From: Dermatophagoides farinae
Taxonomy: Eukaryota; Arthropoda; Arachnida; Sarcoptiformes; Pyroglyphidae
Assembly (NCBI RefSeq): GCF_024713945.1
Contig: NC_134682.1
Coordinates: 868,001 to 932,000 of the forward strand
Direction: 5' to 3'
DNA: 64,000 nucleotides
In this document: positions 15,231 to 39,634 of the stretch, piece after piece
Numbering within the stretch: position 1 is the stretch's first letter
How the letters are laid out: each line of letters begins with the position of its first letter
The notes under the pieces: model-generated
Told to the model about the DNA's origin: nothing
Databases searched by the model: none
Seen by the model: the letters and a program-made list of their open reading frames with translations, nothing else
Position numbers and translations under genes: made by a program

Positions 15231-18200
15231 TTACAATTCCGATTCTGGTTTTTGTTGCTGTTGTTCTTTTAACAATTCCTGATAATATGCCTGTTCATTC
15301 AGTTTATTGGTCAATTTCCATAATCGAATCATTTTGTGTTTTTTTGTCTTTATATATGAAATGAACAAAAAAAATCAAAATTAACATTCGATCAAGATTA
15401 TTAAATGCCATATTACATACCTTTTCGTCAATTTCAGGAACCTTTGTAATAATAGCTGAAGTTGTAGATGATCGAGTATTGTCATCCTGTTGATCAATAT
15501 TTTCATCAAACTTATTGCCATGGTGGTTATCTTTACGATTAGATTTTGTTTTCTTTGCAACTGGTTCTGGCACTTGGTGTGGCTGTGTAAAAAATTCAAT
15601 TTGATCATTAAAAGAAATGATGATAAAAATACATTAATAGCTTACAGAATAAGTTCTTTTGATTTTCAATTTTTCAGGATACATTTCAAATGCATAGCTC
15701 TTAATATTGACTGGAAAATGTGCCGATTTCGGGATTCGACTAAATGATTTGGCACCGCGATCAACACGCATTTCACAAATGAATACATCTTTTGGATCAT
15801 ATCCGATTGGTCGACCTTTTGTATAGGTGGATGGATCTAAAACCATACAGGTTTTTCGCACCTCTTCCATTGCTGCCCATTCACAAAGTGGTGATCGTAA
15901 CAATTCATTTGGATAGAATTTACGTGTTGGTTCATGATAAGTTTCCGAAGGCCAAATATAATGATGGCCAAATAAAATTCGTTGTCCAGTATTTTTAATG
16001 ATGGCCAAATGTTGAACACGAATAATGATACATTGTTGGCGTTCGAATGGATGTGATCGTGTTTTGATAGCATTATCAGCTGCTGTTCTAATTGTTTCAA
16101 TAAAATGTTCACCATCTATTTGTTGTTCAGCATTCTTTTTTCCGGATAATTGTTTCGATGTCACAGGATTCGGTGATTGACGGTATATATAAACACAATC
16201 ACCAAGTCGAATTCGAAGACCCTTTTCGATTGGAGATTCCAATGTTAGATAATAATTCATTGGAAATGGCATATCAAAATTTGGCAGATTATTAGGCAAT
16301 GGTATATCCTATGATGATTATAAATAAACATTTACATTAATAATAATTTTAAAAAATTAAAAATCATTTGATGAATTTACCTTTGGCACAGGTCTAGGCT
16401 GACAAACTTCACAAACGTATTCATTTTCATTGAGATTGACTTCAGAAAATTGTTGAACACAATCAAAATGTTGCCAAATCTATGATTGAAACAATCAATT
16501 GTTTTTAATTCAAAACAAAAATTCATAGATAACAAATCTTACCTCGCATTTGTCACATTGAATCATTTGACCTTCTTCTCGGAGAATTCCACAAATACAA
16601 CGAATCACTTCTTCATTATTCTTTTCTTTAATCTGTAAATGTTGTTGAATTAATGAATCACTAGTGGTTTCGGAATTTCCATCATTTTCTTTCTTTAACT
16701 TTTTAGGAATAAACGATTCTACAATTCGTGGAAGAGAAAAATGTTCAGATATTCGAATCGGTTCATTCGATTCCAATACTCCAATGAATTTGTTCATTCT
16801 TTTTCGATTCATTTCGGTCAATTTAGTTCCTTTGAATTTTTCACCAAAAATATTCTTGCTACCATTGCATAGTGCTGCTGATGAATCATTTTCCGTATCA
16901 ACAATGTCCTTTATGATTGAATGTTTTTCTTTCAGCTTATCCGACAACAATTTGTATGCATCCCTTTCCATGGAATCAATTTCATCACAGCTAATACGAA
17001 TAAAGGTAAAATCATCATTGTCTAAAGTATTTGTCGATTCCGATGGTGATTTTGATCTTTTTCCATTTGTCGTAGTGGCTGTATTGTATCCATTTTTAGT
17101 TAATTTAAGTTTCTTCAATTTACTATTTCCATTGGTAATATCCAAACGAAATTCTTGTAGCTGTTCTTTTATATGTGAAATAATATTCCGTTCAAATGCG
17201 TCGATCTGTATCAATTTTCCAGTCCTAATTTGATCAATAAGCGGAGTGAAGCTGATCAAACTATTATTAATAGCATTTTCATGTTCATTAATTTTATTTC
17301 GTTTTCGTTTGACAGCTCCATGATTATTATTGTCATTATTGACATAATCTTCACCACCATTTTTTGGAATACCATTCTTATCATAATGATAACCTTTGAA
17401 AATGGTTGAGTATACTTTATTCAATATAAACAAACCAATTTCACGGCAAATGTTTGAGTAAATCTGTGTAAGTTTCAAAATTTTTGTATTCGGATCATTG
17501 CCCACACGTGAAATGCCACGAGTTTTAATAGAACAATTACTAGATAATAGACGACTAGTTGAAGATTCAGAATCGGAACCATTTCCATTATTATCACTTG
17601 TATAACGGATTCGATATAGATTTTTTTGATCATTATCTTGATTATTATCTAAATAGTTTTGCAATGCCAGATAGAATCGTCTTGTTTTTTCGAAATTTCT
17701 TCTCATAAACAATAAATCCTTTAGTATTTTTTGCTTTTTCGTATAACTAAGTGGTTCCATTTTTCTTTTCAACATGATTGGATCATAAGAAATTTCGACC
17801 ACATTCTCTTGTTGTGAAATGATGTCCTGTTTTCGAAGATTTTTACCATTTTTCACAATACTGACAGGCACTTTGATCTTTTTGGTTGCACGACGAACAA
17901 ACAGAAAACTTCGTCCAAGAGGATCGTTTGGAGGCAATCGAGAATATGGTTTAAGAAATGCATAAGGAAATTCAATTAATGGTTTTGTTTCCTCCGTTGA
18001 AATTGTTGGTTCTTCACTAGCAACATCGACATCCATTTGAATCGAGCCTGCTGCTTCATTACTGTTCCCCGTTAATTTTGGATTTAATGAATTCTTTCCA
18101 TTGATGAAACCACGACATTTCAATGAACCACAATGGCATATTTGTTTGGTTTCAACGTTGAAATTATGAAAATTATAATCATAAAACAGTTCTTCCATTG

Positions 18201-21200
18201 ATTCAATATCTCGTAAGGCAAACATGCAGATTCGATAATATCCATTAACGGCCCATTTTTGCATCTCGCAATTTGGTTCACAAGAATGATTGACAAAACG
18301 ACCTTCATTACCAACACGATAACCATCGATGACAACACCAGGCTCAATTTTCAAACAATAATGGTGTTGATCATTATTGTAGCGTTCATTCATACGTTTC
18401 AAAAACAATCGATCGCTAACTATTTCTCCAATATATTCGAGAATAAATTCACCTTTTTGAATTTTTTCGGTAGTTCGAATCCCCCAACCACGATGCCTGG
18501 TCATGAATCGTTCTAATCCAGGACTCCAATGATGACGTTGAATTCGTTGATTTGAACATTTATCTTTTGCTGGACAAGTTTGTGGCCAACATTCCTGATA
18601 CATCATACGATTAATACAATCGGTACCACATGCTGATTCGTTCGGGCTTCTTGGCATTGTACAACTACATGATTGTTGTGAATCAGTGGCTACAGGTTTA
18701 ACATCGACAAAAACATTTTGACGTACACGACGATAATTGGCAGAACTCATCAACAATGGAAATGGATTGTATTTATATTGATACCAGATATCGAAACTGA
18801 GATGAAAATCTTGTCGAAAACTTGGATCTTGTGGAAGAAATTTTCTAGGAATCGAATCATTGTTATGTTGTTTAGATTTTGTACTATCGATTTCTCCATC
18901 TTTGGATGAATTAAATGACGATGGTAAGCAAATCGGAGGAAATGGTAATATTGGCTTTGGCCATGTTTTGTTATCAATTGATTTTTGAGCATCATTTCTA
19001 TTATTATTGTCATCACTTTCAGAAGTTGATGTTGTTGTCTTGGATTTATCATCATCAGTTTTGACTAGAACATTCGAAAAAGATCTATCATTATCATTAT
19101 TCGTCGTCGTTGAATTATCATTAGTTTTTGAAGCAAAATATTCATCAGAATGTAATTGAATAAATTCTTCTGAATAAAGTCCAGCTTGATAATATTTTTT
19201 CGATGGAATTGGCCTTATAAATGGATTCGATTTGATGGGATAAACTTTTTTATGTCTATTATTCTGTTTATTTGATGGAGCAGTAACCATATAGATAGGA
19301 TAATCTGGATCATCATCTTCTTGACTTGATGTCGACGATGTTGTTGCAGTGGTCGATTGTCCAGTTGGAAATGAATGTATACTTGTAGAATCGGAATCTG
19401 AAAAATTTGATGATTTCTGCTTTGTATTTTTTTTATTGGATTTCTTTTTATTAGATTTACTTGCATCACTTTCAGATGATGACCATGATGATGATGATGA
19501 TGATGATGATAATGATGATTCACTTGATTTTTTCATTTTATTTTTTGTTGTTTGACTTTTTGATTTGACAATTTTTTTCATCATAGTTTCATTGTCATTA
19601 ACTTCGGCCATCATTATTGGATTCATAGAATTTTGATTCTTGTTTTTTGTATTAACAACAGTTTTGTTACGTTTTCTTGGCTTTGTAAATCCAGTCTTGT
19701 TGATAACACGTCTTCGTTTCTTTTTATTATTGTTTGCGATTGTTTTTTGAGCTTCATTAGTTTTCGAATCATTTTTCTTAGTATCAACTACAACAACGGT
19801 GGTATTCGCAGTTTGAGCAATTTCTTTATTCTTATTATTATTAGCTAAACCAGATTTTTTGTTGTTCATCTGGGTTTTAGATTTTACGGTATTAGTTTCA
19901 TTGATGGTAGCTGAGCTACTTAATTTTGATGTACGATTATTATTACCACCACCACCACCACCAGCAGCATTAATAGATTGGCGTGACATATTTTCACTAG
20001 AATTATTGAGATCTTCGTCTTTTGTTGAAAATAAATGTTGAATATTCTTTGATTTAATGTTAATATTTGTATTTTTTATTTCGTGTTTCAATAAATTTTT
20101 GTCGACACTTTTAGCTTGTAATTCTTGTTTACGTTTCGTTTCACACTTTTTCTTCTTTTTATTACCACAATTTGATCGATTATCATTATCATCATTCGTA
20201 ATTGTTGTTGTTTTATTCTCGTTTTCGTCATCGGTACCATCAAATTCGTCATCAGCATCAGCTTCATCTAAATCAACATTGGTCACTTTTGATAACGATG
20301 ATGATTTTAAATCATTGACATTTTGGCAATCACATTCATTATTAACTAAATAATTTTTATCACTTGATGATACTAATAAATAAGTTGAAAAAAAAGATAA
20401 AGTAAAATAACCGAAATCAAAAATAAAGAAAAAAAAATTTTTTTTGGCGGGCAAAAAAAAATCCTTACCTGGTTGCTGTTCGATATAATCACGATAAATG
20501 GCAGTGTTATTTCTGGTTGTTGATTGAATTTTTGTTCGTTTCGTTACACCTACACCAACAATCCGGCCGGTTTCTATTGATTGTTGTTGTTGATTCGACA
20601 ATAGATCAACGATAGATTCGGCGGTTTTTTGTTCCGTCGACAACGACGACGACGACGACGACGACAAAGATGATGATGCTGTTGCTACTATTGATGTTGT
20701 TGATGATTGTATTTGCTGCCGTTTAGCTTGACTCGAATTCGATTGGCTCATTATTGTCGTAATTGTGCCACTTCTACGATTGCTGCTAGAAATTGTTGAA
20801 CCAACATGTTTATCCAATACTGTGGTTGTATCATTTGGAATAGCATGTTGTTTCGATAATTTTAGTTCCAAATCTAATGATGATTGTCGTAGTGGTGGTT
20901 GTGTTGTTGTTGTTTTTGATTCTCGTTGTTTATTTATTTTATAACTACTACTACTACTACTACTATTAGTAACATTTTCGGCTGCTACATTATCTTTGTT
21001 CATATTTGGAACGTTCGATGGCGGCACTGATTCTTTGGATATTTTTCGAATATTTGATCCATAACTATTATTATTATTAATGATGGATGATGATAGCAAT
21101 GGAAATATTTTAGCAGGAATAATGGGACGAGGATGACCACAACCAACTGATTTTACACTTTTACTTGAAGTATTAACAACAGTTGTGGATGGAGGGGATG

Positions 21201-24200
21201 GCGTAATTAAATCGACAGAGGTCGATGAATTTGCTGTTTTACTTTTAGATTTATTTTTCTGTTTACCGCCACCGCCACCACCACCAGATACGGATGTTGC
21301 TGATGAAAATTGATTTGGTGATGATGATGATGATGATGAAGATGGTTCTTGTTCATCAGGACGATGTTGTCGTTTCTTTAATGGTAATAATCGTTGATTA
21401 TCATCTGATGATGAATTTTTATTCAGCCCGTTGTTTATAATAATGATATTATTATCTTTACCAATGTTGGATGTTGCCGTTGTAATCGTTTTTAATGTCA
21501 AATTCGTGGATCGTCGCTGATGATGTGAAGCAATTAATCGACTAGATTTAGTTATCTTTCCTATTGATGATTTCGTATATGTACATTGTCGAAATAATGG
21601 ATGCAATGCATGATGATCAATAGTTGGGCCATTAGTGCCCGTTAAATGCAAACATTTCAACCAATGAATAATCGAGTCAATTTTATTCATCAAAATCGGA
21701 TCAAATAATGATGCTGTGGTCAAAGATGATGTCGATGAATTTTTGCCACCATCTAAGCCTGTCGATAAGATGGAAAATCCTTTTTTACCATTATTATTAC
21801 TTGATGATGATGAATTTCGTTTTTTATTTTGTTTCGATTTATGTTTCTTATAATCATTTGCAGAAGATGAAATGGATTTGGATGATCGTAATTTTTCTTT
21901 ACGATGTTTTTTCTTTTTCGAACTTTTACTCACATTAGTATTATTATTATGAATGACTGTCATTTCTTTATGATTGTTTTTCTTTTTTTCCAAATCCAAA
22001 ATAGTTTTATCATTGCCAATTACCAATGCTTGATGACCATCATCATCTATTGATTTTGATTGTAATGGTGCCGCCGATGGTTTTCGATCCATTTCTTTTT
22101 GAATATTTTTTACATCATTTGTTTTTGGTGATTGTTTCGTTGAAATCGGAAACACAAGCGGTTGATCTAATGCAGATGATTTCAATAAATTATCACCAGT
22201 TTGATGTTGCTTCAACACTGGTGGTGGCGGTGCAGGTGGTGGTGGTAATGATGTATGTTTATTCGATTGCTTCAATTGTTGTTTTGGAGAATGATGTTGT
22301 TGTTGTTGTTGTTGACTGTTGTTGTTGTTGTTGTTGTCATTATCATCGACATCACTTAGACCAGAACTGGCAGCATTAAAAGAATCGATTGTATCTTTCA
22401 CCGAACGAACTAGACTTTCAAATTCATCTGATTGTGGTGATTTCATTACCAGAATATCCGATTGTAATTGTGTTGATGATTGTTGTGGTTTATTTGTGGA
22501 AATTTCATTCGTAGAAGACGACGACAAAGATTGAGATTGTTGAGACGTTATGGTAGTTACTGTTACCGGTGTTGATGTTTTCGAGGTAATTATATTCGAT
22601 GTTGTTGTCGGTATATTGCACTCGGTAGATGATGATGATGATAATGATGACAATGATTTCTTTGATTCTGGAAGTTTAATAGAAAGTTGAGCTGTTTTAG
22701 GAGCTAATTTCTCAATTTTAGGTTGTATATTTTTCAATTCAGATTGCCGTGATTTAATTGAATTTTGATTTTTTGATTCTGAATTCTTCTGAATCAACGT
22801 TATCGGTGTTGTTGATGTTGTTGTTGTTGTTGTTGTCGTAGGAGCATTGGCTATTATCACAGGACTTGAAAGATTAGAACGATGAAATTGTTGTTGTTGA
22901 TGTGGCTGAGGATGATGATGTGGCGGTGGACCGCTACGACCGGTTGGTGAAATTACTGATAATAATAATGGTGTTCCAAAAACTGAAGATGGAGCAGGCG
23001 GTGGTGGTGCTTGAATAGAAATTGGTTGCATCAAACCTGGTGATGGTTGTGAAAATAAAGTATATGGCAAATGTGGATTTAAAGCAGAATTTGGTGCCAA
23101 AATTAAACTATTTGTATTAGTAGCTGTCAATGGTTTAATAGTAGCTGCTGTGGATGCTGATGCAGTTTTAGTTGCGCTAGTTGTTGTCAAAATTGATGAT
23201 GACGGCTGAGACATTTTAGCTGCTTGCGAACCAACAATATTAATTGTTGCCGTTGTTGTTGTTGTTGTTGTTATTGACGGTTTAATTGTTGTTAATGATT
23301 TCGTAGTGGAATTTGAAGTAATCATCGATGCAACAGATGAAGAATGTTGAACATAATGATGAACCAATTGATTATTATTGGAAAATGAATTTGTTGCCAC
23401 TTGTGCCGATGATGATGTTAATGATGATGATGATGATGATTGTAATGGTGATTGTAATAATAACAATGTTTGTGGTGATATTATTGTCGATAATGGTGAA
23501 TGTTGTTGATTTGTCGCAGAATGATGTGCTGCCTGATGATGTGGATGATTCGGTGATACGGTATTCGGTAAGATTGTAATGGCAGGACCGGTTCCAAAAT
23601 TTGTTCTAGTTACATCCTGTATAGAAGATGATATTGAATTGGTCGTTTGTTTTATATTTAATAATTTATCCTTATTCGATTTGTTATGATGTTGTTGTGG
23701 TAAACTTTTTGCTATTACAGTCGTATTTGCTGCATTAGCTGTTGTTAGATTATGTTGTGAGGAAGTTGTTTGAACGATTCGAGGTAAGATAAATGGTGGC
23801 GATGTTGTTGTTGTTGTTGTTGATGTCATTGCATTGGATGATGCCGTATTGGACAATAAACTACCAGTAGCGGATGATTTTGCCGATGTAAGGCCAAACA
23901 TCATTAAAGAATGAGCGGCAGCAGCAGCAGCAGCAGCTGAAGATGGATCAGTACCGGGAAATGGAAAATTCAATGTAGATTTTGGCATTAATAATGGAGC
24001 TGTTGCAGTTGCTGCTGATACCGCTGTTGTAGCTGATGATGATGGTGAAAATTGTGGAGTATTTGACAATAATGTTGAATGTTGCATTGCGGCAGGAAAT
24101 GAAAATGGTGATAATGCTGCTGCTGCTGTAGCTGATCCGGTTGATAATGGTGGTGATGTAAATATAGTCAATTGAGATTGTTGTTGTTGTTGTTGTTGTT

Positions 24201-27198
24201 GATGATGATGTGATTGATTAGCATGTAAAGGAAAGAATGGATTCTGTCTATTGGATATAAATTGTGTATTAGCTGGATTAATCGTTTTATTATTATTATT
24301 ACTAGCAGTAGTAGCAGTAACTGGTAATTGAATATTATTCAACGAAAGTTGTGGATTAAAAATTGTTGGCATAAATGCTGAATGAAATGCTGGAAAATTA
24401 GCTGCTGCTGAATGAAATCCAGTTGAAAATGTGGGCGTAGTTCCGGGAAGAAAAAATGATGGATTTAAAAAATTATTACCAGCCGCTACTGCTGCAGCAG
24501 TTTGTGATGTAACCTGAATAAATTTGTTGGCATTATTGGCTATTGTCGATACTGATGCCGTTGCCGAAGTCGATGATGATGATGCTAATGATGACAAAAT
24601 ATTCGCGGAAGATAATAATTTCGATGATGATGATGATGACGAAGATTTTATCGAATTGGATAAATTTTGCTGTTGATGAACAGTTTGTTGTTGTTGAACA
24701 ATTTTATTGACCATAGTTCGTTGAATTTGTTCTTTTTTATTATTATTATTTGTTGTCATTATTGTTGTAGATGATGTTTCACTGCTGGTACTATCTGCTG
24801 CCATCATTGTCGTTTTATTATTGGTACTTATGGATTTTGAAATTGCACTATTTGTATTTTGAATTAAATTTGTAGTTGTCGATGTTGAAATAGATGATGA
24901 CGACGACGACGACGAAGAAAAAGATGATGATGTTTTAATATTCGAAACAGCATTCACCGATGTTGAACTTGAAACAGTTGATGTTGTCAATGTTGATATC
25001 GAACAAGAAACAGCACAAACAGTTGATGTTGATGATTTTTGTGATGGTAATATTCGATTCTGTGATTGTTGATGATGAGCAATACGATAACTTCGAAGTC
25101 TTTGACGTTCTTCGGCTGGATCACGTTTTTTAACCATAGACGTTGTTGTTGTCGTTGTGGTAGTTGATGTTGATGTTGTAGATGTTGTTGATATGCCATA
25201 TTTTTGGCTATCCACCGACATTGGTGATTCAATCATTGAATTAGAACAATCCGGTGTATTTGGATTCGATAATGAGCAAGTACTATTTACTTTTGTCAAT
25301 TTTTGGACATTGGTTGTTTCAGTAGTCTGTGCTAATTGTTGCATTGTCGAATGTTGAAATTGAAAGCTTGAAGACGATTCAGTAGTAGTTGTTTTCATCG
25401 ATGATTGTTGTTGTTGTTGCTGCTGCTGTTGTTGTTGTTGCAAAATGGTATCCACGGAAAATATGGATGAATGCTGTTGCTGTTGAATCATTGTCGTTTT
25501 ACTTGCCGTTTGTTGTTGTTGTTGCTGCTGCTGTTGTTCCACCAAAGATTCAGATATCGCATTATCTATTGTCATTCCTGCAACGGAAATTTTCGTCAAT
25601 ACATCTTCGATACCTTTATTATTGCTTAAAGCTGATGATTGACTACATGATGAACCGGATCTAGAGGTAAATGATGATGATGATGTTGTTGTTGTTGATG
25701 ATGATGAGGACGACGATGATGATGAACCGTTTGAAGATGAACATGATTTGGATTCATCATCATCATCATCACCAGATTCTTCCAATGAAGATGATTCAGA
25801 AGATGATGATGTTGATCGTGAAGAATTTCTTGAACACTTTGATGATCTAGAACCGGAACATGATTTTGTCTTCTTTTTCTTCTTCTTCTGATGATGATGA
25901 TGATGATGACAATGTTTTAGTTTCACTGAACGTTGAGCTTCTTTTATTGCTTTAGAATTCGTATCATTATCATCTTCGTCTGAATTATCGGAAGAACATG
26001 ATGATGATGATGACGACGATGTTGTCGATGATGATGATGATGATGATGATGATCCATTGGAATGTTTCGATGATGAATTTGATGACGATGAACACGATGA
26101 TGATAATGAATCACAGTTGGTTGTTGGCTGTTCAAAAAACCCGCTTGATTCGCGATTATTTATCGTCGTTTCATTGGCCAATTCTGTTGCTGCCTCTTTT
26201 GTTTTTCGAGAAATTTCATCACCAGATATTGTTTGCAAATTCTGTAAAGTTTGTTTTTGTTGTTGACTAGAATGTTTTTTCTTTTGAGATTTTTTCGACG
26301 ACGAAGATGATGACAATTTTAAGCTCTGAATTTGTTGTTGTTGTCCGGTTTCATTGTTGCTTAATAAATCTGAATTTGTTGATGTTTGTGAGATCGGCAT
26401 CGAAAGTGATTTATAATGGTGGCATTTTAAATCAGATGATGATGATGTACTTGTCTTTGTTGTTAAAACATTTGTTTTCAATGATGATAAAGATTTGGAT
26501 TTTTGATGATGATGATGATGATGATGGCCATGATTTTTATGATGGTGACGGTGGTGGCGACCTTTTCGAAGATTATTCCTAGGATAATGATTGTGCCGAT
26601 TATGCTGGTTTTGTTTATGATGATGACGTCGATGATGGCCATGATGATGATGATGATGGCTAGGGGAAGTAGTGGTCGTTGTACATTGTACCGTCGATTC
26701 AACAACACTCAATTTCCGAGTTTCAATAATTAATTTTTCCGTTTTCTGTACAACTGTATGATGATGGTGTTGATGATGTCGACGGTGATGATGATGGTGA
26801 TGATGATGATGAAGATCCGACGTGCCATTTTCGCCTTGTCCTGGTACAATGGATGATACGATATTACATTCTGACATAATAGAATCTTTGGTTGATGAAT
26901 TCAATGATTTTGATTTGGAAATTTTTTCATTTTTTCTTTTTTTCGATGATTGTTCCTGGTTGTTCGATAATTCATTGTTTGAGGTATCACATTTATTGTT
27001 TTTCGTATCCAAATTCTGTTGTTGTTGATTATTGGCCCCAATAGCAGCAGCAGCCAATGTTGTCTTTGCAATATTGATCAAATGATTTGTTGACAATGTT
27101 GCTTTAGGATTAGAATCCTTTGTAGACACCAGGATTTGTTGTTGTTGTTGTTGTTGTCGAGATTTATCTGGTTCAGTAGTTAATAATGTTGATGACAT
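15231..27198 (-). CDS. ash1: Ash1 histone H3K36 methyltransferase, six coding exons, 3866 aa
   Basis: Ash1/ASH1L is a trithorax-group nuclear enzyme that dimethylates H3 Lys36 and counteracts Polycomb silencing. Exons (minus): 20469-27198, 16543-20372, 16381-16479, 15646-16308, 15421-15582 and 15231-15347, all in phase. Residues 1 to about 2240 are low complexity: four His clusters (about residues 130-240), poly-Ser, poly-Gln, and Thr or Ala runs. An AWS domain starts near 2811 (CSCTMPRSPNESACGTDC). The SET domain (about 2870-2985) has GWGIRTTEKIQKGEFILEYI, RFVNHSCEPNCE and FYDYNF, and the post-SET is CHCGSLKCRGF. A strongly diverged bromodomain-like stretch is at about 3211-3390. The PHD finger spans the exon 2/3 junction (RCICGIL...CDKCE, IWQHFDC...YVCEVCQPR). 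The BAH domain fills exon 4 (GDCVYIY...RILFGHHYIWPSETYHEPTR). This order matches ASH1L. The start is the first ATG of the long frame. The 96-nt intron at 20373-20468 has no stop and can be mistaken for coding sequence. Confidence 0.92.
20373..20468 (-). other. Stop-free 96-nt intron inside ash1
   Basis: The donor CCAG then GTAAGG and the acceptor TTATTAG flank 96 nt (32 codons) with no stop. Translated, it reads as a Phe-rich stretch (NFFFFIFDF) unlike the hydrophilic Ser/Asn/Gln sequence on both sides. Removing it joins G+TA as Val and keeps the frame. I read it as a normal intron. Confidence 0.8.
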
Positions 27199-28276: not shown

Positions 28277-29973
28277 TCATAACCATTGTTCAGCACTATT
28301 GGCTGAAAGATCCAATAATCTCCATGCTGCTTTTGGATCCAATTCATTTTGATCCCGGCATAGTACCCAAACATAATGTACACGAATAATTTTCTCCTGT
28401 TTTTTCAATCGGAATAAATAAATAAATCAGATTATAAATCCAATAATAATAATAAATAAAACATACCGGATCACCTTCCACTACTTTTCCTTTTGAATCT
28501 TTTACACACATAATTTGTTGTGTTTGAAATGTTATAATCAATACGGGTCCTTGTTCCATCATTTTGCCCATTTCTAATTCCAAGTTTGTTAAATCAATTA
28601 CTTTGGATTCAAAATGATAGCCCATTGTTTGTGCTTGTTTGATTGGTGTCACCAATACATTGTATACCTGTGTGGTTGTAAAATTCATAATTTAAAAAAT
28701 AGAAATTAATAAAATAAAATATATTGAACAAAATACTTACACCTTCATAACACCAATCATTGAGCACTTCAAGATCACCACGAAGTATGGCTTCCAATAT
28801 ATTCGGTATGATATCAGTTTCACATTCTTTGATAAATTGTTGTCGATCAAAATTCGGATCCACTTTACAAATTTCGGTCAATACTTCGGATAATTCAGTT
28901 TTTGTAAACATTCCGCCAAACAATTCTGTCATCTTATCGGTAACTAAACGTGATGCACGAACCAATGGATTATCACTTTCATCCAGTTTGGTTTTCATTT
29001 CAAATATTTTATTCACATATGGATTATTATCTTTAAAATTTTGCCAACTTGAAAACCATTTTGAATCTTTATGTAATTCAACACCGGTTGCTTCTCTAGG
29101 TTTTTTTCGGAAAAAAAAATTAAATTAATCAAATTATCATCACTAATATATGAATGATACTCACTCATTAGGCTGTATAGGTCGTGATGATACAAATTGA
29201 TCAGAGTATTCTTTTCGTTTACGAAGTTTATCCGGTGGCTGATAAAATCGTGCCGTTGATAATGGTGTTTCACCAATTTCTTCTTTCACTGTTTGCACTG
29301 TTTTCGATACGGTTTGGAAAGCATCACTTTTGGAAATCTGTTCAATTTGTTCGGCAGCTTTTTTCGCTTGTTTCGACAATTCTTCTGCCGCTTCTTTACC
29401 TTTTTTACCAATATCGGTTTTACTTGCATCTTCTAAACCTTTACTTAGTTTTTGTTTTATCGTATCGATTTGTTCAATAATTTGTTTTGAACCTTTACTA
29501 GTTTCTGCTTCAATGTTTTGCTGCATATTTTTTTTTAATCGTAGAAAATGAAAAGTTTTATGAAATTAAAAAAAAATCGAATACTTACAAATTTTTTTCT
29601 TGCTTTTTTCAACGCTTCTGAATCTTCAAGTTTTTGTGCTTCTTCACGAAATTTTCGTAAATTTTCTTTCATTTCTTTACTTTTATCTAATTCTTCTTTT
29701 AGATTATCGAATATTTGTCCCAAAAATCCTTTATTTTGACGATTATTATTTGTCATATATCGAGCCTTGTATTTAACAGTGGGGAAAAGAAAAAAATTTT
29801 TTATTATACAAAAAAAAAAAATTTTCATTCACAAACACACTTACATTGAAACATGAATGTGGCCATATCCGAGGCGTATGGCTACCACATGGATGTGCAC
29901 CATTTAACGATAATGTAATCAATCTAATGGTCGATGCCGGATGTTTGACAGTGTTACCGAAAAAGGTATTCAT
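28277..29973 (-). CDS. Tim44: TIM44, mitochondrial import motor subunit, six exons
   Basis: TIM44 tethers the Hsp70 import motor to the TIM23 channel on the matrix side of the inner mitochondrial membrane. Exons (minus): 29845-29973, 29589-29765, 29165-29520, 28741-29095, 28467-28667 and 28277-28396, giving 445 residues, close to the usual about 450. The first exon (MNTFFGNTVKHPASTIRLIT) is basic and lacks acids, fitting a mitochondrial presequence. Exons 2-3 are a Lys/Glu-rich helical region (FLGQIFDNLKEELDKSKEMK). Exons 4-6 are the conserved C-terminal domain: IRGDL-type core LEAILRGDLEVLNDWCYEG, MGKMMEQGPVLIITFQ, VVEGDP, VHYVWVLCRDQNELDP and AAWRLLDLSA. The start at 29973 is the only in-frame ATG that leaves a clean presequence; a longer frame upstream reads into hydrophobic sequence. 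The exon 3 acceptor (ATATGCAG) has a poor pyrimidine tract, but the frame supports it. Confidence 0.93.
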
Positions 29974-30334: not shown

Positions 30335-33300
30335 TCAACAAATAGATTTCCATAAATTAATTGAAAGATAACGAAGTGCTTTATAACTGGCAATTTCACG
30401 TGCTTCATCTTCATCCAAATCAATAGCAAAACTAAGAAATTCTTTTTGTAATAATGGAAAATGATCAACAAATTCTTTTGATGAACAATGAATGGTTATC
30501 AAAGCAATTGTTCCTTTTTGATTAATGGAATTATCATCGTCATCATTTTCGATATCAATCGATAATAATCGACATTTAAATTCAAAAATCAATGGATCAA
30601 TAGACATGGCTAGATTAGAATTCAATGTAGAAGCAATCAATGAAATTAATTGCAAATGATGCCAATATTTTTTTCGATTAAATTTTTCAGTCACCTGATG
30701 ATTAATCCATTCTCTAATATGTTCACTCCATCGATCAAATGATTCACTTTGATCTAGCATCTGTTTTCGATGATTATGATATTCGAATAATCTATCTTCA
30801 ACACGTTGAAATAGACAACTTGGATCTGTACGTTTTTGATTTTTTAAATATGAACTATAAACATCTTTTAAAAGAGTTTCAATGAATTCAATATTTCGAT
30901 CAATATCTTCACGTTGTTCATCACTATAAATAGCCGGTTCGAATTGTTGTGAATCGAATGTCATGACTAGATTGGCAATTTCAGTAGCATTGGAAGCAAG
31001 TGAAATTTTTAAATATTTTTTAAAATCAGGAATACTATAAACATCTACTAGTTGTGATAATGATAATTTGGAAACATTTGCAATGCATAAAAATATGTAT
31101 GCAATGATTGTTTGCGAAGATCGTTTGCTAGCCGATATAGCCATTATTGAAAGTTTACCAACAAGTTTATTGGAATCTTGACGAAAATGAATCAAACATT
31201 GAACACTATATAAATTATCATTATTGAAATGTTGAGATAGAAATTCAGGTTTACGAATGAAAAGATCTTGACATATTTGATACATTTTCGATATGATTGA
31301 TTTACTTTTCATTTGATTCAATGATGGTTTTGAATGATTTGATAATTTTTGCAATGATTGTTGTTGTTCATTAATATTTTCTTCAATCGAATCGATTGTC
31401 ATCATTTGTTTGAATGCATTTGTAGAAATTTTATGCAATACACGAAGACTTGCCGCTTCACGAGCATCATCATCATCATGGCCAAATGCATATGTTATAT
31501 AATGTTTATGTATGAGATCAAAATTTAATCTGCCATTGAATCGAACACTTATAAATGCAATACAATGTGAATCATTCATATCAATACGAATAGTATGACA
31601 ATGAAATTCTATGGCCAATTTTGAACAATCCAAAATACCAAGTGTTGTCAATTGGGCTATAAATTGTAAATGATTCCAATATTTTTCCATATCAAATGTA
31701 GATAATAATTGTTGTATTGATTGTTCATTGAAATGTTGAAATTTACTTGTTGTTGGAAAATTTTTTTCAAAATTCATCAATAAAAATGGTATTTTTTCCC
31801 GGATCACACCAATACTGGGTGGTTTTGTTGTTGATTGTTGTTTCAATGAATAATAGTAGAATTTTTTTGCCATAAATAAAATGAATTTTTTGTTAATTTC
31901 AAAATTTTTCATACACAATTCTTCCATAGATTCTTCATCACCATTGTAGAAAATTTCGATATTTTTTTCTTTATTGCAAAATTTACGTATATTTTCTTCA
32001 TTAGGAAATTCTTTACCGTTAGAATTGTTTGTTGCTATTTCCAATGAAAATCGTAGAGATTCAACAAATAATTCATCATTTTGATCGAATCTAGGCGGTT
32101 CCAGACCTAATCGAAGTAAACAGATGAAAGCCGAAATCTGTTTGGCCATACGTTGTGTTAATGAAAATCCAACAGTTTTCATACAGTACATGAATTTATC
32201 TGGTGTAATTTGTTCGAAAAATAATGTACATTCAACACGATAAATCTGACCTTTGGTTGATTCAATAATCTGTTGTTGATTGAAACGTTTAGCAATCGAA
32301 TGATTTGAACTGAGAAATGTGTAATTAAATGTTGGACTTTTTAAAGACATATTTCTAGCTAAATCATAAAGAAGCGTTAATGACTTGTTCGATACGGAAT
32401 CTAGATTTTGATTTATGTTTAGTTTCTCATCAGATCTCGAACATGATGGCCTTGGATCGGTGGTATCAACATTTTCAGTTTTATGTGAAGCAATATTTTT
32501 CAAATGATCAACATCGATTTTAATCAACATATTCTGTGCAGCTTGTTTTTTAGCCAATTTTTTCGACCGATCTCTGCCTTCAGTTTCAATCAATAATTTT
32601 CCATTATTTTGCGCATCAAACAATTGACAACAATAAATAAAAACAGGAATATGTGGTGGTCCATATGAATCGACAAGATGGAAATTGATTTTATAACGAT
32701 TTCGTGATACCAAATGATTCAATGTTGATATTGGATCAATCACAGAATTATTGTTATTATTGGATTTTTGATCTTCAGTTATGACCATGGAATTTTTAGA
32801 TTTATTTTCGTTGAATAGATTCGATTTAAGATGATCAAGTGCTTTTTGAGCGGCAATCTGTCTAGCCTCTTGTAGTGTTTTTCCATTGCCACAAAATTGA
32901 ACACCATTAAACTCTACTGATGCTTCGTATGCATGGTCATTCAATCGTTTTTCATTGATTTCAGATTGCAATTTCATTCTTGACTTTGTCGTTGATTGTA
33001 TATTAGAAATAAATGAAGGAGCTGGCACCGGAATATAACCAGGATTTACAAGTTCATAAATAAGATACTGCTTACTAGTGTATGGATCACAGAAATAAGT
33101 AGGATTAAAATATGTAATATTTGCAGGAATCGGCTGATAGCATGGAATGTTTGATGATAGTTGAGAATGATGATGGAATTGATTAGTTGAATATGGCTGA
33201 GTAATTGGCGCTGATGAATTGATCATGATTGGATTTTGATACGGTGATGTTTGCAGCAAAGAATTATTTATCGTTGTAAAATTTGTAGTAGATGGTTGCA

Positions 33301-33802
33301 GAAAACATGATGATGAACCGGATTGTTGATTCGATTGATAACGAGGTTGAATACCATTTCGAATGAATAATTTGTTTAATTCATCAAATTTTTCTTTCGA
33401 TTTCTGTTGTTGTGTATGATTTTGATTAGTCGATGTGAATTTTCGTCGATTATGTTGCTTGAAATTCGGAAATTTTAATCGAGTTTTCTCCAATGCATTG
33501 AATGCAGCATTTTGTTGAGCATTTTTTATCGAACTACCTTGTCCATTATGTTTTTCTGAAACACCAAGTTTTACATAAACTGTGAAAATTTTACCATGTT
33601 CTGGACCTTGTACATCGATTAATTCATATTCCGGTTTAATCTTATGCAAATGGCATAGCTCATTTATAAGACTCATAGCATCTTTTTGAGCTAATTGATC
33701 AATAAATGGATTGAATCCTTGATGAATATTACACAATCGTTGGTGGCCATTTGTTTCATTATATTGGCAACTTTTCGCCATTGGATATTGCCGCTTAGCC
33801 AT
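30335..33802 (-). CDS. stau: Staufen, intronless, with duplicated C-terminal module
   Basis: Staufen is a cytoplasmic double-stranded RNA binding protein that localises and regulates mRNAs. One 1155-residue frame is open without introns. dsRBD1 is at residues 41-110 (SLINELCHLHKIKPEYEL, GPEHGKIFTVYVKLG). dsRBD2 is split: its first helix is at 137-156 (ELNKLFIRNGIQPRY) and its second half at 285-328 (FNGVQFCGNGKTLQEAR...AAQKAL). The two halves are separated by a Pro/Ser/Asn/Tyr-rich insert, as in insect Staufen. dsRBD3 is at 356-428 (INFHLVDSYGPPHIPVF, KLAKKQAAQNML). Beyond it lie two related modules, 474-792 and 837-1152, each with a diverged dsRBD4-like part and a dsRBD5-like end (KYWNHLQFIAQL...DAREAASLRVLHKIS and KYWHHLQLISLI...EAREIASYKALRYLS). 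The usual protein has one such pair. The start at 33802 is the first ATG; a second in-frame Met is 7 residues later. Confidence 0.85.
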   Translation of the reverse strand: MAKRQYPMAKSCQYNETNGHQRLCNIHQGFNPFIDQLAQKDAMSLINELCHLHKIKPEYELIDVQGPEHGKIFTVYVKLGVSEKHNGQGSSIKNAQQNAAFNALEKTRLKFPNFKQHNRRKFTSTNQNHTQQQKSKEKFDELNKLFIRNGIQPRYQSNQQSGSSSCFLQPSTTNFTTINNSLLQTSPYQNPIMINSSAPITQPYSTNQFHHHSQLSSNIPCYQPIPANITYFNPTYFCDPYTSKQYLIYELVNPGYIPVPAPSFISNIQSTTKSRMKLQSEINEKRLNDHAYEASVEFNGVQFCGNGKTLQEARQIAAQKALDHLKSNLFNENKSKNSMVITEDQKSNNNNNSVIDPISTLNHLVSRNRYKINFHLVDSYGPPHIPVFIYCCQLFDAQNNGKLLIETEGRDRSKKLAKKQAAQNMLIKIDVDHLKNIASHKTENVDTTDPRPSCSRSDEKLNINQNLDSVSNKSLTLLYDLARNMSLKSPTFNYTFLSSNHSIAKRFNQQQIIESTKGQIYRVECTLFFEQITPDKFMYCMKTVGFSLTQRMAKQISAFICLLRLGLEPPRFDQNDELFVESLRFSLEIATNNSNGKEFPNEENIRKFCNKEKNIEIFYNGDEESMEELCMKNFEINKKFILFMAKKFYYYSLKQQSTTKPPSIGVIREKIPFLLMNFEKNFPTTSKFQHFNEQSIQQLLSTFDMEKYWNHLQFIAQLTTLGILDCSKLAIEFHCHTIRIDMNDSHCIAFISVRFNGRLNFDLIHKHYITYAFGHDDDDAREAASLRVLHKISTNAFKQMMTIDSIEENINEQQQSLQKLSNHSKPSLNQMKSKSIISKMYQICQDLFIRKPEFLSQHFNNDNLYSVQCLIHFRQDSNKLVGKLSIMAISASKRSSQTIIAYIFLCIANVSKLSLSQLVDVYSIPDFKKYLKISLASNATEIANLVMTFDSQQFEPAIYSDEQREDIDRNIEFIETLLKDVYSSYLKNQKRTDPSCLFQRVEDRLFEYHNHRKQMLDQSESFDRWSEHIREWINHQVTEKFNRKKYWHHLQLISLIASTLNSNLAMSIDPLIFEFKCRLLSIDIENDDDDNSINQKGTIALITIHCSSKEFVDHFPLLQKEFLSFAIDLDEDEAREIASYKALRYLSINLWKSIC

Positions 33803-34560: not shown

Positions 34561-37500
34561 TTACATAATGGTACAAAGTGATGAAACTTCTTTACCTCGT
34601 GTATAATAATTTGATTGTTCTTGTTCTTGTTGTTGCTGTTGTTGTTGTTGTTGTTGTTCAATTTCGGATTGTTCTTGTAGATTATTAGAATTGTTGTCAT
34701 CATCATCTGGTTCGATATTCGATTTTGCATTCACCACCATCATCGGTTGACTTTTATCGATGGAAACATCATCCTGTGGATCGTTCAGATCTAATGATTG
34801 CACTAGTTGTTGTTGTTGATCTGTCTCCATTGATGATTCTTTTATAGTCACCATAGATTCAGCATCATCATCATTTGAACCATCAACAACAAAAACACGA
34901 TCATCATCATGATCATGATCTACCTGACTATTATTATGATCATTATCATCAACAATCAATGGTTGATGAATATTCTGATCACTAACAGTAGTAGTAGTAG
35001 AAGCAGTAGTAGTAGTAGTTTCATCATTATTATTTTGGACTTTATTATTAGATAATAGTTTATCCCTATCATCATTAGTTTTTTTGCTTGTATCATCATC
35101 ACTATTATCATCACAATGGTCATCGCAAACATCACTAGCGTTGTTGGCATCTGGTATTGTAGTCATCACACGAATATCCTTGTTGTTGTTGTCCATATCC
35201 TCTTCTTCAGATGCTGATTTGATTTTTTCATCATTATCCATAGTATTATCAGTTGGATTATCCCTGGAATGTTCATTATCATTATTGATGGTAGAGGATA
35301 CATTACCAGTATTTGACGATTCACTAGTTGGCTGCTGTTCATCAATTGGCGGAATCGATGACATTGATGTAGAGGATGTAGAATTTTTCATTTTAAGCAC
35401 AATTAAAGGTCGTTTAGGTTTCGATTCAGACGATTGTTGCTGTTTATTAACACCATCCGTAGTCGTCGCTGATGTCAGCTTTTCATCATTATCATCATCA
35501 TCATTTACGTCACTTATGTTCGATGATGATTTTATTTCACTCGTTTCAGTCATCGTTTCCAAGGGTGGAACAATTGTTTCGATTGTTATTTCAAATTCCT
35601 CTACTTTAACTTCGAATGATTCTGGCTCTTTCATTTGAAGATCATTTTGATCATCGTTTTCACTTTTCAAATCTATACCTGCCAGATCGGTAGTAGTGGT
35701 GGTATTACCAGCACCATCATCGGATTGTTGACCGACGGCCATTTCAACATCGTTCGTCGTTTCGATTTTAACATTGGTGATTTTAGACTCTTCGTCCTCA
35801 TCATCTTTCATTGGCATATCTAATCCTGGTATGATTGATGAACTACCAGCACCAGAACTAGCTGATTTAATTGATGTGTGTATCATCATTGAATTTAGTG
35901 ATAGATTTTGGTTGGCTGCGAAAAAAAAATTATTTTGAAAAAAATGGATCATCACAAAGGAGGAAAGGGTCATCAAAATCGAACTCACATTCGTCAAGAT
36001 GTTCATTATTTTGAATCGATTGTTTCTCCAATTGTTGCAACAGATGATCTTTAAGGCAAAGCGGATGAAATGGACGACCAACGGCAGCGGGTTGTTGCTC
36101 ATCGTTTCCGGCTACAGAAAAGCACACGGCATTGATTAGACGCCATTCTTCTTCATCTTCATACCATTCAATTTTGAATGGCTCATTACAAACAGTACAA
36201 TTACTGGTAACATCAGAATCGGCAACAACCGAACAAATTTTCTGATTATTTGAATCATCTTTATTATTGTTTGACATCACATTAATATTATCACAGCTTA
36301 TTACTTCGATGAACTGATCGAATTCACCGATACAATCTTTAAATTGTGCAAATTTCATATTAAATTGATTTGCACGATGTGCTGCACTACTTGGACTGTC
36401 GGCTGAATTTGAATCGAAAAATCCGCCATTATTTTCTTCAATATCATCATTAACTTCTTTGTAAAGAATCCATTGATCAATCGTATAATACCAAGGACGA
36501 CGATGTGCAAGGGCAGCTGAACCGAATTCAGGTTTAATTTTTTCACGACGATTCTGTCGAAAATGCCAATCTAAATGACGTGAATATCGACTCTTTTTTC
36601 CAGAATCAGATTCATTCGGAAATCTAAGCGAACAATTTGTACATTGAAGTCCATTATAAAGTTGATTGATAACAAATTGATGATATTGTTTAAGTTGAGA
36701 CATTTCCAACGATAGATATCGTTTGGGTTCTGTGGTCTGAGCTTTTTTCATTTTATTCGAATCATTGGTAGTTGTTGTCGTTGTAGTTGTCGATGTTCCA
36801 GTGAAAGTTGAAACTGTTTTATTGGAGATTAAACCGGCTGCCGATAATTTAGATAGCAATGAACCAAGATCGGATAATGCCGGTTTAGCTGAAGCAGATG
36901 TTGGTTGCTGTTGGAATGACGCCTGTGTAGTAGTGATGGTTGATGGTTGTTGCATTAATTCGTTCGCAGCAATTTGTGTTGAAACTGGAGTTGAGTGTTG
37001 CATGGCTGTCGAATGTAGATGATAGGTATTGGTTGTTGGAACATTATTAGTTGGTGATGGTATCATTGTATTTGAATGCATGTTGTTAATCGATGGACCA
37101 TAATTGAATGAAAGATGTGTAGTTGTAGGTGGCGGTGGTTGCATTAATTCGGCCGAAACAATTTGTGTTGAAACTGGTGCTGTTGGTTGTGGATGATAGA
37201 TGTTTGATGTTGAAACATTAGTAGTTGATGATGGTATCATTATATTTGAATGCATATTGTTAATCGATGGACCATAATTGAATGGCACCTGTGTACTAGT
37301 TGGTGGTTGTTGCATTAAATCGGCCGAAACAATTTGTGTTGAAGCGGGCTGCTGCATGGTTGTTGGCTGTATGAGATATGTATTCGTTGTTACAACATTA
37401 GTAGTTGATGATATCATTGTATTTGAAGGTATATTGTTGTTAATCGATGGACCATAATTGAATGGAAGATGTGTCGTTGTAGATGGTGGTGGTAGTTGTT

Positions 37501-39634
37501 GTTGTTGTTGCTGGTGACGTGACATTTTTGCTTTAGCTTCATCAACCAAACGATTCCAAAGATCATAACGTGGTTCATCCGATACTTGTAGAAATGGTTT
37601 TGAATCTGATAATAAAAATAAATGTGTTTGAAGATCGGCTTCAAAATAGATTGGAACTGGTGCACCACCAAATTGAGCTTTGTATGGTCGATCATTGACG
37701 ATTAATTCTCGATCAGGTAAACCAAGCATAATGCGTTGTGGATGTGGTATTCCCGATAAATGAAATAAATATGGTGTAGGATTATTGAAATTTAGACAGA
37801 AACTTTGTTCCGATGCTGTACCAGGATCAATAATCACTTTGGTTGGATGACCAGAAAAATAAACCTGTTTAGGTTCCAAAAACATTGGATCAGTTGACAT
37901 TAGCTGATCGAATGGAGTATCGGCATGAACTTTGAATGGTACAACTCCGGTTGTTGGATCCAAATAGAAAAGACGACAAAATTGTTTGTCAATGAATAAA
38001 GCAGATGAACCGTATGGTGGTTCAAGAAATGGTTGATTTGGAACTGTTGTTGTTGTCGCTGCTGCTGGTTGTGGTGGTGGTGGTGGAGGTGGTGCCGACA
38101 CTATCGGAGAATTATCATACGGTAGATTATGTGATGGTGCATATGATTGAGAAACAGGAGGCAATGGAAGTCGTGTTGGTGATTGGCGACGATTTTTTAT
38201 ATTTTTAATTTTCGATGCCACCACATTATTTGGTTTACGTGGTTCATTTGAACGTTTGGTTACGGGAATATGATGATTCGATCCAAGCGGTATAATATCA
38301 TCAGGTGATGGTGGTATCATCATTGGTGCCATAAGTTCATCTAATGGATTCTTTTTCATTTGTTTGCTACCACCAAATGATGATGAATGACCAGAAAATG
38401 ATGATGATGTTGGTGATGACAGTCGTTTACGTTTCGGTATTTTTATATTAATTTTCTTCTGCATCATCATTTTATCATTTCTACCATCCATCATCATTAT
38501 TTTATCATCCGAAGATTTACGTTTTCGATCCAATTTTGATGGTGATGAATTTTTCTTAAATTTTTTACTATTTTCTTGTTTGTTGTTCGATTTTTTCAAT
38601 AACACGGATGATGATGATGTTGGTGGTTGTTGTGGTTCATTTTTATTCTTAATTTTATTATTATGAGTTTTATTCGAATTCGATGATAATTGATTATTTT
38701 TATTAACTTTATTATTATTATTATTATTGGCAGCAGCAGCAGCTGCAGCTTTACTAATCAATTCTTTACGTAATTCATTTTCAATTTGATTACGTTTTGA
38801 AATGATATCATTTTGATTTAAATGAATTATTGTTGGATGTACAGTACCACCGGTGGTGGTTGATGATTGTTTTGTCGCCGTCGCCGATGATGATGATGAT
38901 GATTTATTATCTGATAAAATTTCAATTTTACTATTAAATACAATTCGTTGAGTTGTAGGCGATGGCGGGGTTAACTTTGATTTAGATCGTGATATTTCAA
39001 TCGGTTTCGATGATGGTGGTGCTGTCGATATATTTTGTGTTCTCGTAACAGGTATCACAATTTGTTTGACAGTTTGTTCTTTTGTTGATTGACTACCACC
39101 ACCACAACCAACAGCAACATCATTTCCATTTTGTTGTACTATAGGTTTTCTGGCCACAATTGGCCAACCAGGATCCAAAGCTTTGACAGCTACATCTAAT
39201 CGATAAAGAATTTCGGCACTAAAAAATGTATTCCATGTTTGTCGTAGTTTATATAACAAAAGTCTTGTTTTTTCATCAGATTTTTCGAATACATGACAGA
39301 AAAGTTTAACAATACGTTTTTGAAATAATTTTAAATAACATGAATCACGAACATTTTTACAAATAGAATCAATAAGATATAATGTAGGTAATTTAATATC
39401 CTTATTAACTTGCAATAAACGTTGTTCAATACAGTCAACAATTTCGACGGCTCTTGTGTCTTTGGATTCTTCGGCCAACATTGTTAACATTACGATATGT
39501 GGTTTAGAATTCATAACTAGATCGGATAATGATTGACGATATGCATCTACTGGATCAACATCTTCTTCAGTTGCATTATTATTATTATTATTATTTGATG
39601 AATGCAAATCTCCATCATCACCAATGGTAGCCAT
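34561..39634 (-). CDS. Pcf11: PCF11, pre-mRNA cleavage and termination factor, two coding exons
   Basis: Pcf11 is a subunit of cleavage factor II that binds the Pol II C-terminal domain and couples 3'-end cleavage to termination. Exons (minus): 35989-39634 and 34561-35915, joined in phase 1 (T+CC = Ser), giving 1666 residues. The N-terminal CID is at about 22-155 (DAYRQSLSDLVMNSKPHIVM, LPTLYLIDSICKNV, KLRQTWNTFF, ALDPGWPI). A Lys/Ser/Asn-rich region follows, then a mid-region motif (PFKVHADTPFDQLMSTDPMF; NYGPSIN repeats at about 725-908). Two zinc-finger-like sites are near 995 (CTNCSLRFPN...HLDWHF) and 1145 (CTVCNEPFKIEWYEDEEEWR...HPLC), both characteristic of Pcf11. The last exon codes for a 450-residue acidic, Asp/Ser/Thr-rich tail ending in a poly-Gln run and NYYTRGKEVSSLCTIM. 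The start is the first ATG before the CID. Confidence 0.92.
36917..37462 (-). repeat. Three tandem ~60-codon repeats inside Pcf11
   Basis: Units begin at 37462, 37282 and 37108 (minus), 180 and 174 nt apart. Each starts FNYGPSINN, continues with SN-x-MI, a Thr/Asn stretch and a Tyr, then QIVSADLMQ or a close variant (QIVSAELMQ, QIAANELMQ). The three copies are similar at DNA level as well, pointing to a fairly recent in-frame duplication. Confidence 0.9.

Follow-up and report, generated by a model that had tools for sequence, protein, structure and literature searches.

Does the protein encoded at positions 30335..33802 of the present window (the whole 64,000-nucleotide stretch of Dermatophagoides farinae contig NC_134682.1, positions 868,001 to 932,000) carry not one but two C-terminal tails of the kind that closes a Staufen protein? 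The original prediction had taken this gene for a Staufen whose fourth and fifth double-stranded RNA-binding domains (dsRBDs) were duplicated in tandem. The gene lies on the minus strand, as do all its parts discussed below, and forms a single open frame of 1155 codons plus a stop, requiring no intron inside. In the assembly, the 62.4 Mb genome in which we also searched for homologues, the frame matched itself at 100% and was open over 1162 codons with zero internal stops. A group 2 allergen gene in this genome has Der f 2 as its top PDB match (271.8 bits; Der p 2, 247.9 bits), in agreement with D. farinae as the probable source. Instead of the single dsRBD4-dsRBD5 tail usual for Staufen, we found that the tail is duplicated, with two diverged tandem copies of a ∼330-residue unit, so that the protein reads as dsRBD1-2-3-(4-5)-(4'-5').

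Judged from sequence comparison, the gene is a Staufen gene, as predicted, since its first three domains pair one-to-one with the same-numbered Staufen domains. Pfam recognized three dsrm stretches (residues 42-106, 273-325 and 357-428; joint score 115.5 bits), and each mite domain was then scored against nine single dsRBDs, the human STAU1 letters coming from a PDB alignment and those of fly dsRBD1-3 being provisional. In this comparison, dsRBD1 (33485..33679; dsrm 53.5 bits) had fly Staufen dsRBD1 as its best partner (z 28.0; runner-up human dsRBD4, z 12.6), dsRBD2 the end of fly dsRBD2 (z 9.9; runner-up Loquacious dsRBD3, z 7.7), and dsRBD3 (32519..32734; dsrm 49 bits) fly Staufen dsRBD3 (z 18.5; human STAU1 dsRBD3, z 12.5). 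The GPxH loop and the KKxAK helix start are dsRBD signatures of RNA contact; dsRBD3 keeps both (GPPH and KKLAK), dsRBD1 the loop alone (GPEH). Besides, dsRBD2 appears to be split. Its main part (residues 273-325; 32828..32986; dsrm 28.8 bits, hhalign Prob 92 to a set of 14 dsRBDs) follows a ∼115-residue stretch with many Pro, Ser, Thr, Asn, Gln and Tyr residues (residues 158-272; 32987..33331) that either precedes the domain or, more probably, lies within it, although the Pfam match of this second half already spans profile positions 11-66. A possible first part (residues 133-157; 33332..33406) was placed by eye and position, and the 30-residue piece around it scored at chance. In Drosophila Staufen, loop L2 of dsRBD2 is described as carrying an insertion of ∼100 amino acids (PMC4600727). 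Membership in the Loquacious/R2D2/TRBP group was considered as well and rejected: that plan comprises two canonical dsRBDs and one type-III dsRBD, and the gene falls outside it because it has three dsrm stretches followed by two further pairs of elements.

The duplication itself was evident from a direct comparison of the two halves of the tail. Residues 466-805 (copy A) and 826-1155 (copy B) are collinear over 358 columns, with 83 identical positions (23%) and 53 gaps (BLASTP, one against the other, 66.2 bits, E 1e-16; phmmer, 49.6 bits). When copy B was shuffled 1000 times per comparison, none of the shuffles reached the score of the whole unit (z 28.8), of the dsRBD4-like parts (z 7.2) or of the dsRBD5-like parts (z 22.7). 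The two same-plan modules foreseen after dsRBD3 are thus borne out by the self-alignment. Each unit likely starts with a dsRBD4-like element (copy A, residues 467-572, 32087..32404; copy B, residues 829-925, 31028..31318) and ends with a dsRBD5-like one (copy A, residues 700-803, 31394..31705; copy B, residues 1038-1155 at the C-terminus, 30338..30691), separated by a spacer (copy A, residues 573-699, 31706..32086, mostly helical in a low-confidence model; copy B, residues 926-1037, 30692..31027). The similarity between the copies sits in both ends, and the spacer contributes little: whole spacers gave z 1.8 (71 of 1000 shuffles reached the score), and with a cut chosen after viewing the alignment, the later part (631-700 versus 961-1037) gave z 4.1 (5/1000) and the earlier part remained at chance (405/1000). 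A conserved stretch within the spacers covers residues 632-661 in copy A (31820..31909) and 965-994 in copy B (30821..30910).

The dsRBD5-like elements are 34% identical in the alignment, and the motifs KYW.HLQ.I and D.D.ARE.AS, located in both helices of this element, are kept in both copies, which differ in their loops (e.g. a DDDDNS insert in copy B). All peptides quoted in the original prediction are present in the uninterrupted frame (LYDLARNMSLKSP at residue 478, MYQICQDLFIRKP at 840, KYWNHLQ at 707, KYWHHLQ at 1045, AREAASLRVLHKIS at 780 and AREIASYKALRYLS at 1134). Its view of K-YW-HLQ-I-L as a motif preceding the dsRBD5-like end has to be corrected, as both models of copy A place it inside the first helix of that domain. 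At the DNA level, copy A (31388-32407) and copy B (30338-31327) shared short stretches alone, among the matches listed, and the duplication is therefore old and would be expected in related mites too. The best DNA match between the copies spans 28 bases over KYW-HLQ-I and is 89% identical, far above the mean protein identity.

Whether the repeated ends are dsRBDs is not settled by any single match. In profile comparisons with hhalign, the dsRBD4-like pair matched dsRBD profiles at Prob 76-86 with none of 100 column shuffles reaching the score; against the dsRBD4 set alone 8/100 shuffles did so, and against two Staufen dsRBD5 26/100. For the dsRBD5-like pair, the corresponding figures were 5/100 against the 14-dsRBD set and 53/100 against the dsRBD4 set, and the spacer pair, serving as a control, stayed below Prob 1 in six of six comparisons. 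For the single elements, the best dsRBD4 scores were obtained with human STAU1 dsRBD4 (copy B, z 2.5; copy A, z 1.3), copy A scoring higher with fly dsRBD2 (z 1.9, provisional letters). The four elements scored no better than chance against dsRBD1 and dsRBD3, the dsRBD4-like element of copy A with dsRBD3 coming closest to an exception (z 2.0, 48/1000), and the same held for all comparisons between dsRBD4-like and dsRBD5-like elements, within and across copies. The canonical dsRBD4 features (a PIS-L-QIQQ-KEKEP start and KK-AK) were found in the dsRBD4-like element of neither copy, and the GPxH loop and KKxAK helix start are absent from all four elements. Pfam scans of the elements one by one yielded no dsRBD, the dsRBD4-like elements having one weak unrelated match each (E 0.023 and 0.035). 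A profile search of the PDB returned no match for the dsRBD4-like pair and three unrelated rows for the dsRBD5-like pair (best E 0.099).

Structure prediction, for which copy A and not copy B was the modelled sequence, gave a helix-sheet-helix arrangement for residues 703-805 (AlphaFold2, predicted local distance difference test score 65.6). This model of the dsRBD5-like element resembles dsRBDs, Staufen dsRBD5 among them (VIA-align, Foldseek), and 33 of 50 structural neighbours among the matches listed were dsRBDs as judged from titles and ranges. The dsRBD4-like element of copy A yielded no confident structure model. The repeated ends hence look like diverged dsRBDs, on the strength of the profile match for the dsRBD4-like pair and of the predicted fold for the copy A dsRBD5-like element. 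Of the seven dsRBD-like folds that had been proposed, the tail's share is backed by these two lines, with a Pfam or PDB sequence match for none of the four elements; the structure prediction that had been suggested pointed to a dsRBD-like fold for the dsRBD5-like element of copy A and left its dsRBD4-like element without a confident model.

What might such a protein do? With an isoelectric point of 9.5 and a net charge of +6 each, the dsRBD4-like elements are basic, while net charges of −2 and −5 make the dsRBD5-like pair acidic. The proposal that the last four domains are probably protein-binding suits the acidic pair; the other pair, being basic, may still contact RNA or tubulin. Our favoured interpretation, which we consider probable, is a mite Staufen whose dsRBD1-3 engage RNA and whose duplicated tail doubles the dsRBD5-like protein contacts. 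An ancestral dsRBD4-spacer-dsRBD5 tail would have undergone tandem duplication inside the gene, after which both copies diverged. Structured RNA would be bound by dsRBD1-3, dsRBD3 above all, and the two acidic dsRBD5-like domains would mediate self-association of Staufen or its attachment to adaptors, twice per chain. Pairing of the copies might take place inside a single chain, or a four-armed dimer might form, so that cargo ribonucleoproteins (RNPs) would assemble at higher valency; alternatively within this scheme, each tail copy could hold its own partner. Precedents come from other species. In human STAU1, the Staufen-swapping motif (SSM) and dsRBD5 make up a module through which the protein dimerises weakly in trans, and the decay factors UPF1 and UPF2 are reported to need this dimer to be stably recruited (PMC6838198). 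The sheet of fly dsRBD5 is described as binding Miranda (PMC4600727). A tethered pseudo-dimer, with the dsRBD5-like domains paired in cis and RNP assembly freed from weak dimerisation in trans, is a more speculative and rather doubtful form of the idea. Two reports weigh against a simple transfer of the STAU1 and fly precedents to the mite protein: mouse Stau2 showed no oligomers by size-exclusion chromatography coupled to static light scattering (PMC6477676), and STAU1 was also reported to dimerise on RNA without the SSM-dsRBD5 module (PMC6838198).

Several other explanations deserve consideration. The two tails might be unpaired and specialised, each dsRBD5-like domain having a different partner, e.g. 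a decay factor for one and a motor adaptor for the other. The low overall identity of 23% and the differing loops, including the DDDDNS insert, are as specialisation predicts, and the sheet-mediated adaptor binding of fly dsRBD5 (PMC4600727) offers a precedent. However, no partner is known, and the retention of KYW.HLQ.I and D.D.ARE.AS in both copies equally suits a shared role, so that we regard two separate adaptors as a tentative and somewhat unlikely scenario. It is unlikely that the dsRBD4-like elements touch RNA or microtubules such that the gain from the duplication would lie in avidity for RNA or the cytoskeleton and not in protein contacts; both elements are basic, and STAU1 dsRBD4 binds dsRNA (PMC6838198), but the GPxH loop and the KKxAK helix start are missing from both mite elements. 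Improbable, in our view, is an origin of the repeated unit outside dsRBDs, i.e. an unrelated mite domain pair joined to a truncated Staufen and then duplicated. The missing Pfam dsRBD and PDB sequence matches, the low model confidence and the absent dsRBD4 start motif would agree with it, yet position, order and element plan agree with dsRBD4-5, the dsRBD4-like pair outscored 100 of 100 shuffles against dsRBD profiles, and the 33 of 50 listed structural rows read as dsRBDs from their titles. An assembly artefact or pseudogene behind the doubled tail, for which we found no supporting point, is extremely improbable given an open frame of 1155 codons and copies too diverged for a misassembly (best DNA match of 28 bases among the matches listed).

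Returning to the Staufen with a duplicated dsRBD4-5 tail, a protein with two dimerisation-type modules in one chain would allow valency to be separated from dimerisation in trans. According to a study of the family, Staufen proteins have three to four dsRBDs and one C-terminal dsRBD-like domain (PMC6477676). The mite protein shares with Drosophila Staufen, which has five dsRBDs, the order dsRBD1-2-3 (provisional fly letters) followed by dsRBD4-like and dsRBD5-like elements, and its ∼115-residue stretch at or in dsRBD2 may parallel the fly insertion; in contrast to the single fly tail, it has two, both too diverged for Pfam. Likewise, the chain holds two dsRBD5-like tail copies where human STAU1 has its SSM-dsRBD5 dimerisation module (PDB 4dkk). 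The type-III dsRBDs, i.e. the third domains of Loquacious, TRBP and PACT, lack RNA signatures, as do the dsRBD-like mite elements, and those of Loquacious and TRBP are structural neighbours of the copy A dsRBD5-like element, but these proteins have three dsRBDs and, unlike the mite Staufen, no doubled tail. The original prediction knew of no such Staufen, and the open-licence literature likewise describes no doubled Staufen tail among the matches listed. The doubled tail is thus a new architecture inside the Staufen family and not a new kind of system. It also suggests the extent to which dsRBD4-5 can drift under sequence detection. No homologue of Staufen could be identified in the mite Aculops lycopersici, although the gene is present in Tetranychus urticae and other arachnids (PMC7738191); strong divergence of Staufen in some mites may fit this missing homologue. 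No relatives of the units or of the whole protein were found in viral contigs or in bacterial and archaeal genome contigs, a result uninformative on other mites.

Within the genome, 19 dsRBD matches were obtained, three in the Staufen gene and 16 elsewhere, where at most two were adjacent. Frames around 15 of these 16 were read, and by eye none had three dsRBDs (introns not modelled); the sixteenth match (L013) shares its frame with L006. When the genome was searched at the protein level, the Staufen gene alone was listed, but each search scored four candidates and missed the other dsRBD genes found by the dsRBD scan, which makes these searches weak on a second Staufen and the lack of another three-dsRBD group in the scan the better evidence. 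The genome may still have a second Staufen that is split or diverged. Two genes, L003/L004 (C2:5369k) and L006/L013 (C6:596k), were named Loquacious/R2D2-like by eye; each has two dsRBDs followed by a C-terminal part resembling a third, degenerate dsRBD, and by eye they suit the Loquacious/R2D2/TRBP plan better than the Staufen gene does. A profile of their C-terminal parts gave no clear match to known type-III domains (1/60 shuffles reached the score). Against these parts, the dsRBD5-like pair gave no match (15/60 shuffles reached its score). The dsRBD4-like pair beat 60/60, a result given no weight as it covers only 20 columns, which are helical and do not belong to the dsRBD-like end.

As for the surroundings, the Staufen frame is intronless across its 1155 codons, and a retrocopy origin is possible. 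The adjoining Tim44 gene, by contrast, occupies two or more short frames (28344-28688 and 28609-29016 among them), both of these matching part of Pfam Tim44. Further along, a minus-strand gene at 16510-27198 encodes a long protein, ASH1-like by eye, whose AWS and SET domains were found within 16510-19509. On the other side, the product of the minus-strand gene at 35930-39634 contains a CID domain and by eye resembles PCF11.
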